The position numbers were made by a program, and so were the translations under genes. Shown one piece after another: positions 1,890-32,483 of a stretch of 33,307 nt of DNA. This DNA comes from Paludibacteraceae bacterium (lineage in GTDB: Bacteria > Bacteroidota > Bacteroidia > Bacteroidales > Paludibacteraceae), in assembly GCA_017557345.1 (NCBI GenBank), contig JAFYZR010000129.1, forward strand, positions 1-33,307, read 5' to 3'. The notes beneath the pieces were generated by a model. The model made no database searches, was not told where the DNA came from, and saw only the letters and a list, made by a program, of their open reading frames with translations. Position 1 is the stretch's first letter; each line of letters begins with the position of its first letter.

Positions 1890-1952
1890 AAATCTTAGAT
1901 TATTTATTAGTTTCGCCTACTCTTTATAGGATTTTCGGCATTCTCCATTAAA

Positions 1953-2456
1953 TTATAATATTGTTATAATTATCGGAATAGGGATTTTACCATTTGTGGA
2001 GGAAATAATATCTCGTTTGTATGTCGTGTTTCCTTTGTATATATGGTTCCCATCGTACGTGTATACAATATCTCTTTTATATGTTGACTTTCCGACAAAT
2101 AAAGTTTTTCCATCCCACGTGTACATAATATCTTTTTTATATGTAGAATTTCCCCGAAAAAAATATTTGCCATTCCATGTGTACAAGATATCTTTTTTAT
2201 AGGTAGAACAACCATTATATACGTGCTTTCCATCCCAAGTATACAAAATATCACGTTTATATGTAGATTTCCCAAGATATAGATATTGCCCATCCCAAGT
2301 ATACAGAATATCCCGATTATAATTATTTTGGCCTTGATAATAGTACGTTTGGGCTGTTAGTAGTAAAGAAAAAAGCACACAACAAAAGACAGAAAAATAT
2401 CTCAATCGAAAGTGTAATATGGTATTAAATACGCCCATGTTATATAATATTGACAT
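1953..2456 (-). CDS. Secreted protein with six tandem 20-residue repeats
   Basis: This encodes 167 residues, or 161 if the ATG at 2438 is used; the AT-rich sequence before 2438 makes that start attractive. An N-terminal signal peptide (FSVFCCVLFSLLLTA, then Q) precedes six tandem copies of a 20-residue unit, consensus STYKRDILYTWDGK plus about six variable residues ending in G(K/N). The period is exactly 60 bp. The alternation of Tyr/Trp-rich strands and DG turns suggests a beta-solenoid or beta-sheet repeat outside the cytoplasm, which is inference. The last copy degenerates into an Ile/Pro-rich tail. It is the first gene of a minus-strand unit driven from 2650-2681. I know no named family for it. 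Confidence 0.7.
   Translation of the reverse strand: MSILYNMGVFNTILHFRLRYFSVFCCVLFSLLLTAQTYYYQGQNNYNRDILYTWDGQYLYLGKSTYKRDILYTWDGKHVYNGCSTYKKDILYTWNGKYFFRGNSTYKKDIMYTWDGKTLFVGKSTYKRDIVYTYDGNHIYKGNTTYKRDIISSTNGKIPIPIIITIL
1990..2349 (-). repeat. 60-bp tandem repeats coding 20-residue units
   Basis: Six imperfect 60-bp units correspond to the repeated STYKRDILYTWDGK-type module of the secreted protein. Because the period is a multiple of three, gain or loss of units would keep the frame. The most constant part encodes RDILYTWDG; the positions after DGK vary. Outer limits are approximate. Confidence 0.65.
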
Positions 2457-2482
2457 ACAAAAAGACCACTTTTACTTATCGG

Positions 2483-2595
2483 CAGGTAGGCTCTGGAAAG
2501 GCCTGTAGTCAAATAAGCAAAAGCAGTCTACACCATACGGCGGACTGTTTCAACTTATCACCCCTGACTACAGATAGATTTTCCAGATTTACCTG
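2483..2595 (-). ncRNA. Long nested inverted repeat: candidate structured leader RNA
   Basis: Five nested stems pair perfectly: 2483-2488 with 2590-2595 (CAGGTA/TACCTG), 2492-2499 with 2580-2587 (TCTGGAAA/TTTCCAGA), 2503-2511 with 2565-2573 (CTGTAGTCA/TGACTACAG), 2513-2517 with 2554-2558 (ATAAG/CTTAT) and 2524-2528 with 2543-2547 (CAGTC/GACTG). That is 33 Watson-Crick pairs in 113 nt, separated by small asymmetric internal loops. It lies between the promoter at 2650-2681 and the repeat-protein start, so the minus-strand RNA is the likely form. I recognise no known riboswitch. A hairpin-type MITE is the main alternative. Confidence 0.5.
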
Positions 2596-2649
2596 TCAAG
2601 TTGATACGTTGATACGTCTCAAAATATGTCTGTCTTCTAAAAGACAGCG

Positions 2650-2681
2650 CAAAGATACGAAAAATATTTGACTTATGCAAA
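2650..2681 (-). promoter_or_regulatory. Promoter of the repeat-protein/DUF4234-like/lipoprotein unit
   Basis: On the minus strand TTTG (2678-2681), exactly 20 bp, then TATCTTTG (2650-2657). The extended form TTTGCATAAGTCAAA matches the longer -33 motif seen at other promoters here. The predicted leader to the start at 2456 is about 185 nt and contains the nested hairpin. Confidence 0.75.
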
Positions 2682-2762
2682 TATAATTGTAAATTTTCGT
2701 ATTTTTTCAATATAATGTAGACCACTTCTGCTTAGAGCGCACAAAGGTACAACTATTTTTTG

Positions 2763-2901: not shown

Positions 2902-3909
2902 ATGGAAGAGAATAGAAGTTACAATCAACAATTAGGTATCGAGATCTACACAGCTCCCGATAATAGTATACAACTCCAAGTTAAAGTGCAAGAAGAAACG
3001 GTGTGGCTAACGCAAAAGCAATTAGCCGACCTGTTTGGAGTTAAAAAAGCGGCTATTTCTAAGCACGTCACAAACATCTTCAACCAAGGGGAATTAAGCC
3101 CCGACTCAACAGTTTCCAAAATGGAAACAGTTCAAATAGAGGGGAAACGTACTATTGTACGTTCTATGGATTATTATAATCTAGACATGATCCTTTCCGT
3201 CGGCTATCGCGTAAATTCGAAGAACGCTATCGCTTTCCGTCAGTGGGCGAATCGTGTTCTAAAGGACTATTTGATCAAAGGCTATGCCATTAATGAGAAA
3301 TTGCGTAGAGAGCAGTTGGCGGACTTGCGACAGTTGGTGCAGATTGTTGGAAGAACCGTGCAGAGTAAAGCCATCGAAAGTACCGACGAGACGCAAGCCA
3401 TATTCGATGTTGTAGTGGATTACACGTACGCGCTGGACACGCTGGATAACTATGATTATGAGCGGCTTGCCGTAAAAGAGACTACTCCGGAGGTGCGTTT
3501 CCATGCCACGTACGAGAATGCCAGGCAAACTATAAATGCACTACGTAAGAAGTTCGGTGGAAGTACATTGTTCGGCAATGAGAAAGATGACTCATTCAAA
3601 AGTAGTATAGGTCAGATTTATCAGACTTTTGGCGGTCAAGATCTCTATCCGAGTGTGGAGGAAAAGGCCGCTATGCTGTTGTACCTCGTGACAAAAAACC
3701 ATTCTTTCTCTGATGGCAACAAACGCATTGCTGCTACTTTATTCTTATGGTTCCTCAATAATAACGGCATTCTCTATCGCGAGGATGGCACAAAGCGCAT
3801 AGCAGATAATACACTGGTAGCACTTACGCTGATGATAGCCGAAAGCCGTACAGAGGAGAAAGACACGATGGTTAAGGTTGTTGTGAACCTAATCAATCAA
3901 AAGAACTAA
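2902..3909 (+). CDS. rhuM: RhuM-family protein with C-terminal Fic/Doc domain
   Basis: This encodes 335 residues. Residues 1-130 match the RhuM (virulence RhuM) family: TVWLTQKQLADLFGV is an HTH-like stretch, followed by LDMILSVGYRVNSKNAIAFRQWA. Residues from about 200 to 330 form a Fic/Doc fold with the active-site motif H267-S-F-S-D-G-N-K-R275, keeping the His, Asp, Asn and Arg expected of a live enzyme. Fic enzymes transfer AMP or other nucleotides to proteins; Doc phosphorylates EF-Tu. The Asp-Gly-Asn-Lys form is between the two classes, so the reaction is uncertain. No inhibitory (S/T)xxxE(G/N) helix was identified. The stop is one base before the next gene. The length is normal for Bacteroides RhuM proteins of this architecture. 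Confidence 0.9.
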   Translation: MEENRSYNQQLGIEIYTAPDNSIQLQVKVQEETVWLTQKQLADLFGVKKAAISKHVTNIFNQGELSPDSTVSKMETVQIEGKRTIVRSMDYYNLDMILSVGYRVNSKNAIAFRQWANRVLKDYLIKGYAINEKLRREQLADLRQLVQIVGRTVQSKAIESTDETQAIFDVVVDYTYALDTLDNYDYERLAVKETTPEVRFHATYENARQTINALRKKFGGSTLFGNEKDDSFKSSIGQIYQTFGGQDLYPSVEEKAAMLLYLVTKNHSFSDGNKRIAATLFLWFLNNNGILYREDGTKRIADNTLVALTLMIAESRTEEKDTMVKVVVNLINQKN

Positions 3910-3910
3910 C

Positions 3911-4459
3911 ATGCAACACCTCAAAGAAATAGTTATCCGCCAATTAGGTCGGACATTGGAATCACCGGCAGATTTTGAGTATTTATGCGAGCAAATACAA
4001 AAATCAACGGGTGAATATTTAAGTCCGACAACATTAAAACGCTTATTTGGAGTTATTCCTTACGAAGGACAAGTTCGGCCGGCTACCTTATCTATACTCG
4101 CGCGCTATGCCGGATATAACGGTTGGCAAGACTATCTAGACAAGCAGCATGTAGAATCGGGTTTTATAAATGCGAAGCGCATAATGACGAAAGAGTTGCA
4201 GAAGGGTAGTAAGGTATTGATGTTATGGAATCCAAATCGTGAATGTTTGATAGAATATATAGGCGAGGAACGATTTGTTGTGTTGCATTCTCAAAATAGC
4301 AAACTACAAATAGGCGATCAATTTAATGCAAATCAATTTATTCTTGGTCAACCATTAACTGTCACAAATGTTGTAAGTATACGAGAATCGGAACGACATG
4401 ATGTTTATGTTGCGGGAGCCAAAACAGGATTAACCAAAATTGAGATTTTGAATGTTTGA
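3911..4459 (+). CDS. Regulator-like protein with N-terminal HTH-like domain
   Basis: This encodes 182 residues. Residues 1-80 match a Bacteroidetes-type N-terminal domain with LSPTTLKRLFGV and RPATLSILARYAGYNGWQDY, found on many regulator-like proteins of the phylum and probably DNA-binding. After a linker (about 82-98), residues 98-182 are beta-rich (KVLMLWNPNRECLIEYIGEERFVVL) with no catalytic signature; a ligand- or protein-binding role is possible. It starts one base after rhuM and overlaps the kinase start by 8 bp, so the three genes look translationally coupled. It could regulate the operon, perhaps through the TGCCAAA boxes, or be the kinase substrate. These roles are inferred from position only. 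Confidence 0.75.
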   Translation: MQHLKEIVIRQLGRTLESPADFEYLCEQIQKSTGEYLSPTTLKRLFGVIPYEGQVRPATLSILARYAGYNGWQDYLDKQHVESGFINAKRIMTKELQKGSKVLMLWNPNRECLIEYIGEERFVVLHSQNSKLQIGDQFNANQFILGQPLTVTNVVSIRESERHDVYVAGAKTGLTKIEILNV

Positions 4460-5486
4460 CGCAGAAGTCAATTCGGGTTTTACCAAAGGCGGAGATATAA
4501 ATATTTCCAACCATTTTACAGAGATAACCTTGCTGCATACATCCAGTAATGGCTATTCCGAAGTATACAAAGCGAAACGTTATGGCCAATGGCATGTGCT
4601 GAAATGCCTAACCAAAGACGTTTCCAACGATGTTCAATATCAAACATTGCTGGAAAAGGAATTTCGTATCGCATATCCTCTATCACATCCTAATATTGTA
4701 CGTACACTTGGCTTGGAAGAAGTTCCGGGAATAGGGATTTGTATTATTCAAGAATACATAGAAGGTACTCCTATCACAACTATATCTCGCAGTCAAGCGA
4801 TAGAGTTATGTCAAGCCGTAGCGTATCTTCATCATTCGGGTGTAATTCATCGAGATATTAAGCCGGAAAATGTACTTGTGAGAAAAGATACCGGACATAT
4901 CGTGCTGATTGATTTCGGGTTGGCAGATAAAGCGAGTTTCAGTATTCTAAAAGGAGGTGCAGGTACAAGCGGATATGCAGCACCTGAACAATGGAAGGGC
5001 GAGATATTACCAGCTATCGATATTTACGGAATAGGCGGAGTGCTTGCGCTGAACAAGAAGTTAAGGCGTTTTGCTGACAAATGTAGGAGAGAAAATCCGC
5101 AAAAACGCTATCGTTCCGTTGTTGATTTAGAAAAAAGAATCGCTCGAAAGTATCCTTGGAGTATACTATGTATATGCATCCTTTTTGTACTATTAGGCAA
5201 TTTGGTTGTGTTTATATTTCAATACAGATCACAAGCGAATAAGCAAGCGGAAATACAAATGCAACAAATGGAAGAGTTACAATCTAACCACGCAGCAAAT
5301 ATCAATGCTATGATTAGAGAAAACGATTCTCTTCGAAATCGCTTGATAATCATAGAAACTCAAGAAAAACAAATGAATGAAGATTTAGAAAGAATGCGAA
5401 ATGCTTATATCCGTTCGCAACAGGAAAGTAATTCTTTCTATAACTCTTATGGCCGCGATAATAGTGCTGATTCGCAGAGATATTAG
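4452..5486 (+). CDS. Membrane-tethered Ser/Thr protein kinase (Hanks type)
   Basis: This encodes 344 residues. The kinase domain spans about 27-230: ATP lysine K51, a helix-C Glu near E70, catalytic loop HRDIKPEN with D135 and N140, DFG at 154-156, APE at 177-179, the subdomain IX Asp in AIDIYGIG, and a final Arg in NPQKRY. The segment between subdomains IX and XI is unusually short, so the C-lobe is compact. One transmembrane helix follows (about 236-257), then a Gln/Glu/Met-rich coiled coil to the end that would be periplasmic. The nucleotide loop (SSNGYSEVYKAK) is a weak GxGxxG. It overlaps the previous gene by 8 bp. Key residues are present, so it is probably active. A sensor kinase is a reasonable guess. 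Confidence 0.88.
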   Translation: MFDAEVNSGFTKGGDINISNHFTEITLLHTSSNGYSEVYKAKRYGQWHVLKCLTKDVSNDVQYQTLLEKEFRIAYPLSHPNIVRTLGLEEVPGIGICIIQEYIEGTPITTISRSQAIELCQAVAYLHHSGVIHRDIKPENVLVRKDTGHIVLIDFGLADKASFSILKGGAGTSGYAAPEQWKGEILPAIDIYGIGGVLALNKKLRRFADKCRRENPQKRYRSVVDLEKRIARKYPWSILCICILFVLLGNLVVFIFQYRSQANKQAEIQMQQMEELQSNHAANINAMIRENDSLRNRLIIIETQEKQMNEDLERMRNAYIRSQQESNSFYNSYGRDNSADSQRY

Positions 5487-6842: not shown

Positions 6843-7408
6843 TTTACCTGCAACTCTTCCTTTCGTTCTTCAAGATCGGTCTCTTCGGTTTCGGCGGTGG
6901 TCTGGCTATCTTATCGCTCATCCAGATGGAAGTAGAGCAATACGGCTGGATGACCCAGCAGGAATTTGTAGATATCGTTGCCGTGAGTCAGGTAACGCCC
7001 GGCCCGATAGGCATCAACTGTGCCACATACGTGGGTTATACTACAGCCGGCATCTGGGGAAGCGTTCTGGCTACTTCAGCCATCATCCTGCCGAGCCTGA
7101 TTATCATGCTCAGTATTTGCAAGGCTTATTTCTGGCTCAATAAGAAATTTCAAGGCAATCCGTATTTCGAGCAGACACTCCGAATGCTGCGCTTTACCGT
7201 CATCGGCCTGATTGCCTCGGCTGCCTTGATGCTTATGAAACCGACCACATTTATCGATCCAATCAGTTGGATTATCTTCGCCGTCGTAGCATTCTTCACC
7301 ATTCTGCCGGAATTGGCAAAAAACAAGGTGACTACATTTATTAGTCACCCTATTCTGTTAATCATTCTTGCCGGAATAGCCGGATATCTCATATACGCTC
7401 CAGCTTAG
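6839..7408 (+). CDS. chrA: Chromate transporter, second half (short-chain CHR)
   Basis: This encodes 189 residues, a second CHR domain. FGFGGGLAILSLIQMEVEQYGWM and VSQVTPGPIGINCATYVGY are the paired signature motifs, followed by hydrophobic helices. The start ATG at 6839 overlaps the TGA of the first half as ATGA, so the halves are translationally coupled. A longer in-frame extension from 6749 is rejected because it lies inside the first gene and MIYLQLFLSFFKIG is the expected N-terminus. The 3' end overlaps the convergent helicase gene by 20 bp. Confidence 0.92.
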   Translation: MIYLQLFLSFFKIGLFGFGGGLAILSLIQMEVEQYGWMTQQEFVDIVAVSQVTPGPIGINCATYVGYTTAGIWGSVLATSAIILPSLIIMLSICKAYFWLNKKFQGNPYFEQTLRMLRFTVIGLIASAALMLMKPTTFIDPISWIIFAVVAFFTILPELAKNKVTTFISHPILLIILAGIAGYLIYAPA

Positions 7409-9620
7409 CGTGCGTGAGTAGCAAGGTTTTGATGCCTTGCGTATCGAAATTGATTTCTATCTTATCGTTTTCTGTTACCTCATCGCGATAAACGCGCACC
7501 ACCGTTCCTGCACCAAAGGCACGATGACTCACGCGGTCACCCGATTGCCATGACGAAGAAGCAACCGTACTGGTGGCTTTGCCAACCGGAGTAACCGGTC
7601 GCGAAATCTCTGTCTCACGAGGCTGGAATTGGAAAAAGCCAAAGGATGGCTTCGGAGTAGCCGCCGGTTTGCGATTAACATCGATAAATTGCTTGTCGAT
7701 ATCGTTGAGGAACCGACTTGGCGAAGCGAAATTGATAGACCCATTCTTGAACCGTTGCCGCGCAAAACTGAGGTAACATTGCTCCATCGCACGCGTGATA
7801 GCCACATACAACAAGCGACGCTCCTCCTCTACTTCCTGCGGCTTGACGGCAAACTGGGAAGGGAATAAGTTCTCTTCCAGACCCACAATGAAAACTACCG
7901 GGAACTCCAGTCCTTTTGCCGCATGAACGGTCATAAGCGTCACGCGTTCGGTGGTGTCCGTCAAGTTCTCATCCTGGTCCGTCTGAAGGCTTACCTCGCT
8001 CAAGAAATCCGTAATAGGCGTGAAGTCGATGCCTTCCTCTGTACGCTGCTCTACAAACTCATGAATAGCATTGAGCAACTCTTGCACGTTTTGAGCCCGA
8101 TCGATGCCTTCTGGTGTTCTGTCCAATGCCAAAGCCGTCATCACACCGGATGTGCGGAGAGCCATTTCCGCAAAGCGGAAAGCATCCATCGTCTCGCTCT
8201 GCTCACGCAGGCCATCGATATAGGCAGCAAACTGGCTGATCTTCTTTATCGTCGCCGCTCCTACATCCAGTCCTGTCGCTTCCGGTTCACGCATCACATC
8301 CAGATACGAACGATGGTGCTCGATGGCATTCGTGGATACTTTCTTCATCGTAGTATCGCCTATTCCGCGTCCCGGGAAGCCCACTATTCGAAGCAAAGCT
8401 TCGTTATCGCGAGGATTGACGGCCAAACGAAGATAACCGAGTGCATCTTTTATCTCTTTTCGTTGGTAGAACGACGTTCCGCCATATATTCGATAGGGAA
8501 TGTTGAGTTTGCGAAGTTCCCCTTCAATCACTCGCGACTGGGCATTCGTACGATACAAAACGGCTATCGAATCATACCCTTTGTACTTCAATTTATGGAT
8601 TTTAGACGCTACGCCTAAGGCCTCTGTCCGGTCATCCATATAGGGTTGAAGATTAAGAAGCTGACCCTCTTCTTTCTCCGAATAGACGGTTTTTTCTATC
8701 TGATGTATATTCTTGTGTATCAGCGAGTTAGCAGCATTGACAATAGTCTGTGTTGAGCGATAGTTACGCTCTAACTTGAACAATCGGGCGGTTGGATATT
8801 CGCGTTGGAAATTGAGAATATTACGGATATCTGCCCCGCGGAAAGAATAGATGGATTGTGCATCATCGCCTACCACGCAGATATTATTCTGCGGCTCGGC
8901 CAACCGGTGAACCAAAAGGAACTGAATATAGTTGGTGTCCTGGTATTCGTCCACAAGAATATATTGGAACTGCTCCTGGATGCGTTTGCGTACCTCAGGG
9001 AAAGTGTTGATTAGCAACAAGGCATTTATCAGCAAATCGTCAAAATCCATGGCGTTAGCTGCCCTCAGACGCACTTGGTACTGCTCGTAAATCGTTGCCA
9101 TTTCATACATCCGCATCTCCCGGTCTTCGCGCAACAATTGGGTGCTTTGAGCATATTGAGCAGGACTAATACCGCAGTTTTTAGCCATCGAAATACGGGC
9201 TTGAACGGTACTTGGCTTGTATATTTTCTCGTCCAGCCCACGCTCCTTGCAGATACCTTTGATGACCGATTTCATATCGGGCGTATCGTATATCGTGAAG
9301 TCACGCGTAAAGCCTAATTTCTCCGCCTCCGGGCGTAATAATTTCGTGCAAACATGATGAAATGTACCCATCCAAAGATAACGGGCATCATTGGCAGAGA
9401 CAAGCCGTTCTATACGTTCCCGCATCTCACGAGCCGCCTTGTTAGTAAAGGTCAAAGCCATTATTCGGCTTGCAGGAACACCTTGCCGGAGCAAGTAAGC
9501 TATCCGATAGGTCAGCACACGCGTCTTGCCCGACCCTGCGCCTGCTACGACTAAGGATGGGCCTTCCGTATAGGTAACTGCCTCACGTTGAACGTCATTT
9601 AATTGGTCTAAAAAATCCAT
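7389..9620 (-). CDS. pcrA: UvrD/PcrA-type superfamily 1 DNA helicase
   Basis: This encodes 743 residues from ATG 9620. It is an ATP-dependent 3'-5' helicase for nucleotide excision and mismatch repair and for clearing replication obstacles. Walker A is AGAGSGKT (26-33), motif Ia is ALTFTNKAAREM, and the Walker B box is DEYQDTN. GDDAQSIYSFRGAD, LERNYRS, YRTNAQSR, TVHAAKGLEFPVVF and LLYVAITRA cover the remaining SF1 motifs. The C-terminal domain (GDRVSHRAFGAGTV) is the Tudor-like PcrA tail. The longer frame starting at 9641 is rejected because that codon overlaps the -7 box at 9639-9646. It is divergent from the rsmF-like gene. UvrD, PcrA or Rep naming is not settled by sequence alone. Confidence 0.95.
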   Translation of the reverse strand: MDFLDQLNDVQREAVTYTEGPSLVVAGAGSGKTRVLTYRIAYLLRQGVPASRIMALTFTNKAAREMRERIERLVSANDARYLWMGTFHHVCTKLLRPEAEKLGFTRDFTIYDTPDMKSVIKGICKERGLDEKIYKPSTVQARISMAKNCGISPAQYAQSTQLLREDREMRMYEMATIYEQYQVRLRAANAMDFDDLLINALLLINTFPEVRKRIQEQFQYILVDEYQDTNYIQFLLVHRLAEPQNNICVVGDDAQSIYSFRGADIRNILNFQREYPTARLFKLERNYRSTQTIVNAANSLIHKNIHQIEKTVYSEKEEGQLLNLQPYMDDRTEALGVASKIHKLKYKGYDSIAVLYRTNAQSRVIEGELRKLNIPYRIYGGTSFYQRKEIKDALGYLRLAVNPRDNEALLRIVGFPGRGIGDTTMKKVSTNAIEHHRSYLDVMREPEATGLDVGAATIKKISQFAAYIDGLREQSETMDAFRFAEMALRTSGVMTALALDRTPEGIDRAQNVQELLNAIHEFVEQRTEEGIDFTPITDFLSEVSLQTDQDENLTDTTERVTLMTVHAAKGLEFPVVFIVGLEENLFPSQFAVKPQEVEEERRLLYVAITRAMEQCYLSFARQRFKNGSINFASPSRFLNDIDKQFIDVNRKPAATPKPSFGFFQFQPRETEISRPVTPVGKATSTVASSSWQSGDRVSHRAFGAGTVVRVYRDEVTENDKIEINFDTQGIKTLLLTHAKLERI

Positions 9621-32364: not shown

Positions 32365-32370
32365 CACCGT

Positions 32371-32440
32371 GTTTTTCATGGTATTAGATTTAAGGTTAAG
32401 TAAAAAGATTGGGTTGTCGGGAGACAACCTTCTTTGTTTT
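32371..32440 (+). ncRNA. Candidate small RNA or attenuated leader
   Basis: The segment is bounded by a full promoter on one side and an intrinsic terminator on the other (GGTTGTC, GGGA, GACAACC at 32412-32429, then a T-rich tail to 32440). The body, with GGTATTAGATTTAAGGTTAA near 32380-32399, resembles promoter-terminator-bounded RNAs I recall from Bacteroidales genomes (compare the Bacteroidales-1 family); this was not checked. No start codon leads a sensible peptide. It may act as a small RNA or as a leader of the lipoprotein gene at 32538, although that has its own promoter. Confidence 0.55.
32412..32440 (+). terminator. Intrinsic terminator of the candidate small RNA
   Basis: Seven-bp stem GGTTGTC/GACAACC with GGGA loop, followed by TTCTTTGTTTT. 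Confidence 0.75.
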
Positions 32441-32483
32441 ATATAGGTTTTCTGCATTTTTTGCCATCAAAACATAGTTTTCA

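Follow-up and report, generated by a model that had tools for sequence, protein, structure and literature searches.

A multi-copy structured leader RNA of Bacteroidota with the predicted layout of a bistable attenuator

Introduction

What is a long nested inverted repeat doing in the intergenic DNA ahead of a gene in a Paludibacteraceae bacterium? The repeat lies within a stretch of 33,307 nucleotides (assembly GCA_017557345.1, contig JAFYZR010000129.1), which was analyzed as a whole and is referred to here as the window. A first-pass annotation, made from the letters alone, placed the repeat in the leader of a repeat-protein operon and offered a cis-regulatory RNA, a small RNA, or a hairpin-type MITE as explanations. 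The comparisons described below identify a large structured RNA family that is multi-copy, Bacteroidota-wide, and without a match in Rfam 15. They also add three elements that the first-pass annotation did not contain: a second pairing partner followed by a U-run, a complementary element further upstream, and the spread of the RNA across the phylum.

Structure of the leader in the window

In a computed fold, the minus strand of positions 2483-2595 forms a single long hairpin with a minimum free energy (MFE) of -47.3 kcal/mol, compared with -26.7 +/- 3.3 kcal/mol for 200 dinucleotide shuffles (z -6.24), and as no shuffle equals it, the earlier view that the pairing exceeds chance holds. The nested stems noted in this interval are present, with lengths slightly different from those first given (6, 8, 9, 5, and 5 bp); the base-pair runs in the MFE fold are 6, 8, 10, 7, 3, 5, and 4. 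Thermodynamic folding of the complete minus-strand leader (197 nt), proposed at the outset as a check, gives a z of -4.7, and the minus-strand promoter claimed upstream is borne out by TTTGC and TATCTTTG boxes. The inverted repeat forms the main stem of a ~190-nt leader RNA read from this promoter and is only part of the conserved unit, in which the promoter is followed by two small 5' hairpins, the long hairpin, a tail, and a U-run (Table 1).

The first gene behind the leader starts 2 nt past the U-run, or 20 nt past it if the second possible ATG, 18 nt further in, is used. Two other RNAs were observed in the window: a DUF805b RNA at 1914-1948 (-), ahead of a DUF4234 gene that is the second gene behind the leader, and a FopS-family small RNA (RF04319, 73.5 bits) at 32369-32443 (+).

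Table 1. Features of the leader locus, in positions of the window
Feature	Position	Strand	Basis
TTTGGC direct repeats next to promoter-like box P2	2762-2779		sequence
Second promoter-like box P2 (TACCTTTGTGCGC)	2737..2749	-	sequence
Element U (25 nt), able to pair, G-U included, with C and the apical loop	2710..2734	-	z 10.3 vs shuffles
Promoter P1 of leader, TTTGC - 19 nt - TATCTTTG	2650..2681	-	sequence
Boxes of promoter P1: TTTGC; TATCTTTG	2677-2681; 2650-2657	-	sequence, Bacteroidetes-type
First small 5' hairpin (GTCTTTTAGAAGAC)	2632..2645	-	fold, close-copy comparison
Second small 5' hairpin	2601..2622	-	fold, close copies, alignment
Long hairpin containing the inverted repeat	2481..2601	-	fold, close copies, alignment, sequence
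P1 stem arms (long hairpin)	2590-2601 / 2481-2488	-	as for the long hairpin
Conserved core arms (long hairpin)	2581-2589 / 2489-2498	-	as for the long hairpin
P2 stem arms (long hairpin); the apical stem is B/C	2565-2573 / 2503-2510	-	as for the long hairpin
Strand B, 5' side of apical stem; partner of C in the default fold	2543..2559	-	folds, sequence
Strand C, 3' arm of apical stem; can pair with B, E, or U	2510..2528	-	duplex and fold calculations, sequence
Strand E, can pair with C; 3' arm of proposed terminator	2464..2480	-	duplex and fold calculations, sequence
U-run (five U) immediately 3' of E	2459..2463	-	sequence
First gene 3' of leader, 167 aa, 6-fold beta flower protein (Bflower_3)	1953..2456	-	

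Close copies and distribution of the RNA

Searching by DNA similarity recovers one copy in the genome of origin and one copy each in 3 of 60 relatives, while a 26-base loop pattern finds five contigs in the genome collection, comprising three loci already known and two new ones (L036 and L038). These close copies come from metagenome assemblies of Paludibacteraceae, Bacteroidales, or Bacteroidia, several of them from ruminant or pig gut. The unit is kept from promoter to U-run in all six distinct loci (L036 ends at a contig edge inside the promoter), always with the same order of promoter, hairpin, and tail. The stems carry compensatory changes (e.g., GUAGUC/GACUAC, GUAACC/GGUUAC, and GUGUUC/GAACAC), with double changes in 9 of 66 predicted pairs among only six sequences and a U-A to C-G change in the first small 5' hairpin of two of the six; the apical loop is nearly invariant. 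Apart from those of G011 and G025, which look related, the close copies are followed by different genes, and a specific tie of the leader to the repeat-protein operon is rejected on this ground.

A longer DNA query produces weak matches in 101 of 393 genomes (own genome included); among the matches listed, most align to the AT-rich promoter part and some to the hairpin or the U end, and G310 C104 and G243 C9, at the least, are parts of copies later found with a model. Phage and plasmid records contain no DNA match at E <= 1e-5, and the loop patterns gave no match in IMG/VR. The core pattern selects six IMG/VR contigs, one of which (L138) holds a copy according to a covariance model (R1, below) at 7403-7591 (-), with 45.3 bits; because of this copy, a mobile element may carry the RNA.

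The building and scanning of a covariance model of homologous leaders, as the first-pass annotation had suggested, extends the family considerably. At E <= 1, model R1, built from the six close-copy sequences, matches 10 of 46 genomes, four of which are those that hold close copies; at E <= 0.01 it matches 40 of 393 genomes of Bacteroidales, the genome of origin among them. Model R2, built from 39 of 60 copies that were picked without large apical inserts and kept below 400 columns, finds copies in 30 of 41 genomes, including all 25 genomes searched from the same genus, with 23 places in one other genome. In the host genome, DNA similarity gives one copy and the structure model seven places. 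In a sample of the phylum, R2 finds the RNA in 58 of 395 genomes and 31 of 171 genera, including genomes outside the class of the window. The genome samples for both models were drawn within Bacteroidota. The counts depend on the sample, and they are lower bounds because only some candidates per genome were scored (six in the 393- and 395-genome scans); the E-values of the models are rough owing to a short calibration. When applied to 105 kb of loci at E <= 0.001, R2 yields 33 matches, comprising 20 known copies, 2 tandem copies, and 11 matches on the opposite strand.

An alignment of 61 rows (A5) has 90.8% of its cells paired and changes on both sides in 59 of 61 pairs, figures that lean towards structure because the rows were fitted to the model and are related, and because one row lies on the opposite strand (L063 +). 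Its covariation score is 0.560, compared with 0.153 in shuffles, and sliding the 3' partners as a control lowers the pairing to 37-42%. The sets contain near-identical copies (e.g., L088/L091, L096/L102, and L099/L116), which means that fewer cases are independent than the counts suggest. One copy (L070) is mis-anchored; it was left out of the MFE-fold, U-element, and U-run counts reported below, and L153 in the second set of copies is the same place. Across the phylum, the sequence of the conserved core (AAUCUGGNA / UNCCAGANCC) is kept while the stems vary. The small 5' hairpins, of which there are two in close copies, are often AGCGUUUAGCU-like in distant ones. Two loci (L096 and L102) have tandem copies of the RNA ahead of a single secreted-protein gene, as in tandem riboswitches.

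A shared strand and a predicted terminator

Strand C in the apical stem is complementary both to strand B and to strand E in the tail, and both pairings take mostly the same C bases. When the tail of each copy was exchanged for those of other copies, the native C:E duplex proved more stable than the average over 20 exchanged tails in 58 of 61 cases, with a mean energy of -29.5 kcal/mol for own tails and -21.4 kcal/mol for tails of other copies; the three failures are L096, L102, and the mis-anchored L070. The second set behaves in the same way (own duplex stronger in 51 of 54, with three failures). Thus, C and E vary in concert. In 46 of 60 copies a U-run follows the 3' end of the best ungapped C:E helix, as against 64 of 632 background windows. 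In the second set a U-run was present in 48 of 54 copies and absent from 6 by the pattern used, the pattern of the fold analysis being a loose one that accepts UUCUU.

The computed folds favor the upstream partner. Among 60 MFE folds, 1115 of the 1313 C bases belonging to the C:E duplex pair upstream and none pairs with E, and forcing the C:E helix costs 2.9-24.3 kcal/mol over the MFE (median 13). The loop between C and E is long (26-84 nt, median 51.5), which is unusual for an intrinsic terminator. As E lies directly 3' of the basal stem, the geometry suggests that intact basal stems would keep it away from C, so the two states would exclude each other. In T-box and similar attenuators and riboswitches, a strand is shared by mutually exclusive helices, one of which is followed by a U-run; by sequence and energy, the RNA described here is built in the same way, with B:C and C:E as the competing helices and the U-run behind C:E.

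It is probable that this ~190-nt cis-acting leader is a bistable attenuator with read-through as its default, a predicted C:E terminator, and a stop of transcription that is triggered by a factor. The C:E helix with its U-run would act as an intrinsic terminator, and the B:C stem together with the basal stems would act as the antiterminator. Read-through would be the default state because transcription completes the hairpin ahead of E and because the hairpin is also the more stable fold, and the OFF state would need an additional factor because all 60 MFE folds favor the B:C hairpin. Such a factor (protein, small molecule, or RNA) could hold the 5' strand or the conserved core, freeing C for E and stopping transcription; candidates are a protein or RNA bound to the 5' strand or a ligand bound to the core. 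Pairing of a small 5' hairpin with E plus the U-run looks possible in some copies and not in others.

A ligand-binding riboswitch would be a special case of this attenuator, with the conserved core and its A-rich internal loops as the aptamer and B/C/E as the expression platform. The strand-exchange layout fits such a design, as does a core that keeps its sequence over the phylum while its stems change. Nevertheless, the downstream genes share no pathway and point to no common metabolite, and no Rfam riboswitch lies over the RNA in the 80 loci tested, so a ligand-binding aptamer is possible yet unlikely.

Position between promoter and gene

Of 60 copies, 51 carry a TAnnTTTG box in an interval of 125 nt upstream of the core, where shuffled sequence would give 5.4 +/- 2.1; between the end of the RNA and the ATG, the box occurs in only 2 of 51 (L063 and L094). 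The upstream interval tested exceeds the mean gap behind the RNA, which is 89 nt. In the second set, 39 of 54 copies have the upstream box. Model R1 favors promoter-bearing hits a little, because it begins in the UUUG of the promoter. The presence of a promoter box upstream of the RNA, and its rarity before the ATG, argue for a gene leader. Judged from sequence comparison, the RNA is a cis-regulatory leader that lies between a promoter box and a co-oriented gene, and of the three explanations first offered this one is well supported, by conservation and covariation as well as by the placement of the promoter box.

The co-oriented open reading frame (ORF) chosen for each copy, i.e., the longest one starting within 450 nt and sometimes not the first, begins 50-130 nt past the RNA in 35 of 57 copies, with 4 of the 61 copies having no ORF in the retrieved sequence. 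Signal-peptide-like starts are found in 32 of the 57 downstream ORFs versus 25 of 111 other ORFs from the same loci, by a home-made rule and with a control that may include spurious ORFs. No common function of the downstream genes was found in the ORFs and domain matches inspected, and the leaders precede secreted, SusC-like, and DNA-modification genes, among others. Four of eight downstream proteins pass the Pfam cut-off, with BspA-type leucine-rich repeat, CsgG, phage-collar, and DNA-methylase domains, and the downstream genes include matches to type II, IIG, and III methyltransferases. Ten copies from a single genus of the phylum sample are followed, after a gap of 229-317 nt that exceeds the usual one, by genes that resemble SusC/RagA receptors by eye; the one receptor checked, a 160-aa fragment, matches TIGR04056 at 8.4e-29, below the whole-protein cut-off. 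In the genome of origin, a co-oriented ORF follows each of the six copies found by structure model, and the genes behind the seven copies are the beta-flower gene, a leucine-rich-repeat gene, a BspA-like gene (by eye), a type II methyltransferase gene, a 253-aa ORF resembling a GIY-YIG protein by eye, and two other ORFs. The third gene past the leader in L036 (2914-4260, +) has a weak match to SIR2-type defense models (Aga_SIR2, 5.7e-9).

The position of the RNA also bears on the second choice among the first explanations, a family of trans-acting small-RNA genes with their own promoter and terminator, in which the gene behind is incidental or reached by read-through only and a terminated product of ~190 nt would be expected. 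The upstream promoter box and the U-run at the 3' end suit a small-RNA gene, and the near-invariance of the apical loop in the six close copies, the tandem copies in L096 and L102, and the copy in an IMG/VR contig are compatible with one. Against it stand the promoter box between the RNA and the ATG in only 2 of 51 loci, the short distance to a co-oriented ORF in 35 of 57 copies, and, with the reservations given, the excess of signal-peptide-like starts. A family of small-RNA genes is accordingly judged improbable.

An upstream element and a second promoter box

The window and four close copies have, upstream of P1, an element U of 22-25 nt that is complementary to C as well as to the apical loop (z 8.6 to 13.6). 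Across 59 copies, the match exceeds z 5 in seven and z 3 in nine, and most copies have no recognizable U. In L068 and L118 the C sequences differ and U changes accordingly. Five of the nine copies with z > 3 have a TAnnTTTG box whose start lies 7-19 nt before U (15 nt in the window, counted from the start of the P2 -7 box; 16 in L064, 15 in L068, 19 in L038, and 7 in L118), and four do not, including L061, in which the box is degenerate. The P2 layout of the window is also recognizable by eye in L064 and L038. Short matches are present 13 and 12 nt past such a box in L088 and L111, which are not significant alone (z 2.2 and 1.0). If a P2-type box is in use, U would lie near the start of a second transcript and place a competitor for C at its 5' end, and where U occupies C, the choice of promoter could set the outcome. 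Direct TTTGGCA-like repeats, a possible operator, extend over 2755-2830, between P2 and the promoter of a divergent RhuM-Fic gene, and similar repeats are seen by eye in L061, L064, and L038.

U and C thus form inverted repeats on either side of P1 in the window and the close copies, an arrangement that an invertible promoter would have. Together with the many copies and their varied neighbors, it could point to a DNA element (a MITE, an integron-like attC hairpin, or a promoter inverted between U and C). Against this, all six close copies share a single orientation and one order of promoter, hairpin, and tail, none being inverted, and the stems vary through compensatory changes. The host genome has one copy by DNA similarity, the other six being found by structure models only, which leaves the hairpin-type MITE first considered unsupported; it was rejected as the main reading, and a DNA element of any of these kinds is highly improbable. 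Least probable of all is ribosome-mediated attenuation by a leader peptide covering the 5' strand, as the strand competition is of the classical attenuator type but no ATG is seen by eye before the stem in the window leader, single-base indels shift the frames between close copies, and no conserved leader-peptide frame was seen by eye; long frames from TTG or ATG do, however, cross the RNA in L038 and L004.

Genomic neighbors and possible significance

Divergent genes at 2902-5486 (+) of the window encode a RhuM-Fic protein, which matches the candidate phage-defense family PDC-S23 of PADLOC at 4e-140, a 182-aa protein that we label HTH-like and for which Pfam and NCBIfam give no match, and a Ser/Thr kinase. 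In the genus, relatives of the latter two are again found beside the RNA. At least 11 of 21 loci with the HTH-like gene have an RNA copy within 5 kb, compared with an expectation of ~0.02 each that assumes 4.6 copies per 2.05 Mb, and the pair is also present, by eye, at L097 in another genus. The link between the RNA and the HTH-like and kinase genes is real in the genus and is not general. Other neighbors observed by eye include transposase-like ORFs just upstream of the RNA in L091 and L094 and, in L078 (G044 C4), genes resembling a histidine kinase and a response regulator ahead of copy L067, near integrase-like ORFs.

A phylum-wide, RNA-switched regulon, in which accessory operons carry the same bistable leader and answer to one trans-acting factor, possibly with RNA-RNA coupling, is a speculative and rather doubtful extension of these results. 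Such a regulon would cover SusC/RagA-like receptors, BspA-like surface proteins, lipoproteins, and restriction-modification genes. In many copies, strands B, C, and E retain much the same GCUCACG/CGUGGGC sequence; because of this similarity, terminated leaders or U-type 5' ends of transcripts from the second promoter may pair with C elsewhere, and contacts of this kind would couple loci. A leader present in 25 of 25 genomes of one (apparently gut) genus and without an Rfam 15 match would mean a substantial additional level of gene regulation in Bacteroidota, and the genes behind it (surface receptors, adhesin-like proteins, and DNA-modification enzymes) bear on colonization and contact with phages. 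The shared core could serve as bait for finding the factor, and the B/C/E layout is open to mutation and compensation.

Comparison with known RNAs

The first-pass annotation recognized no known riboswitch, and at the gathering score no Rfam 15 family overlaps the RNA, either in the window or in any of 80 other loci, which represent 79 distinct places; positions 2400-2900 of the window give no Rfam match even at E <= 5. The DUF805 and DUF805b RNAs (RF03081 and RF02914), which are likewise cis-regulatory (Rfam type Cis-reg), occur on the same transcripts, 14-48 nt past the new RNA in 6 of the 80 loci (L087, L090, L088, L091, L064, and L157). They span 35-68 model positions of separate sequence and do not overlap the new RNA.

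The Flavo-1 RNA reportedly goes back to Weinberg (2010; PMC2864571). In the available portion of PMC9723704, which lists 64 structured 5' regions, Flavo-1 is described as a repeated structured motif of Flavobacteriaceae with several matches in 5' transcribed regions and with matches in either sense. Copies of the new RNA, in contrast, mostly point at a gene, and Rfam families overlap none of those tested. Fremin and Bhatt 2021 (PMC8040213), as far as the available text extends, report palindromic Bacteroidetes candidates with predicted terminators, among them HMP2_4205, a candidate of 132 bp commonly near TPR genes; the new RNA resembles these candidates by their description. No published account of the family was found by literature search or in Rfam, and the supplements of PMC8040213 and PMC9723704 may hold copies.

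With respect to T-box-like attenuators, the new RNA agrees in having a shared strand that enters mutually exclusive helices, one of which is followed by a U-run, and differs in the placement of that strand, which lies near the tip of a long hairpin and 26-84 nt from its predicted terminator partner.
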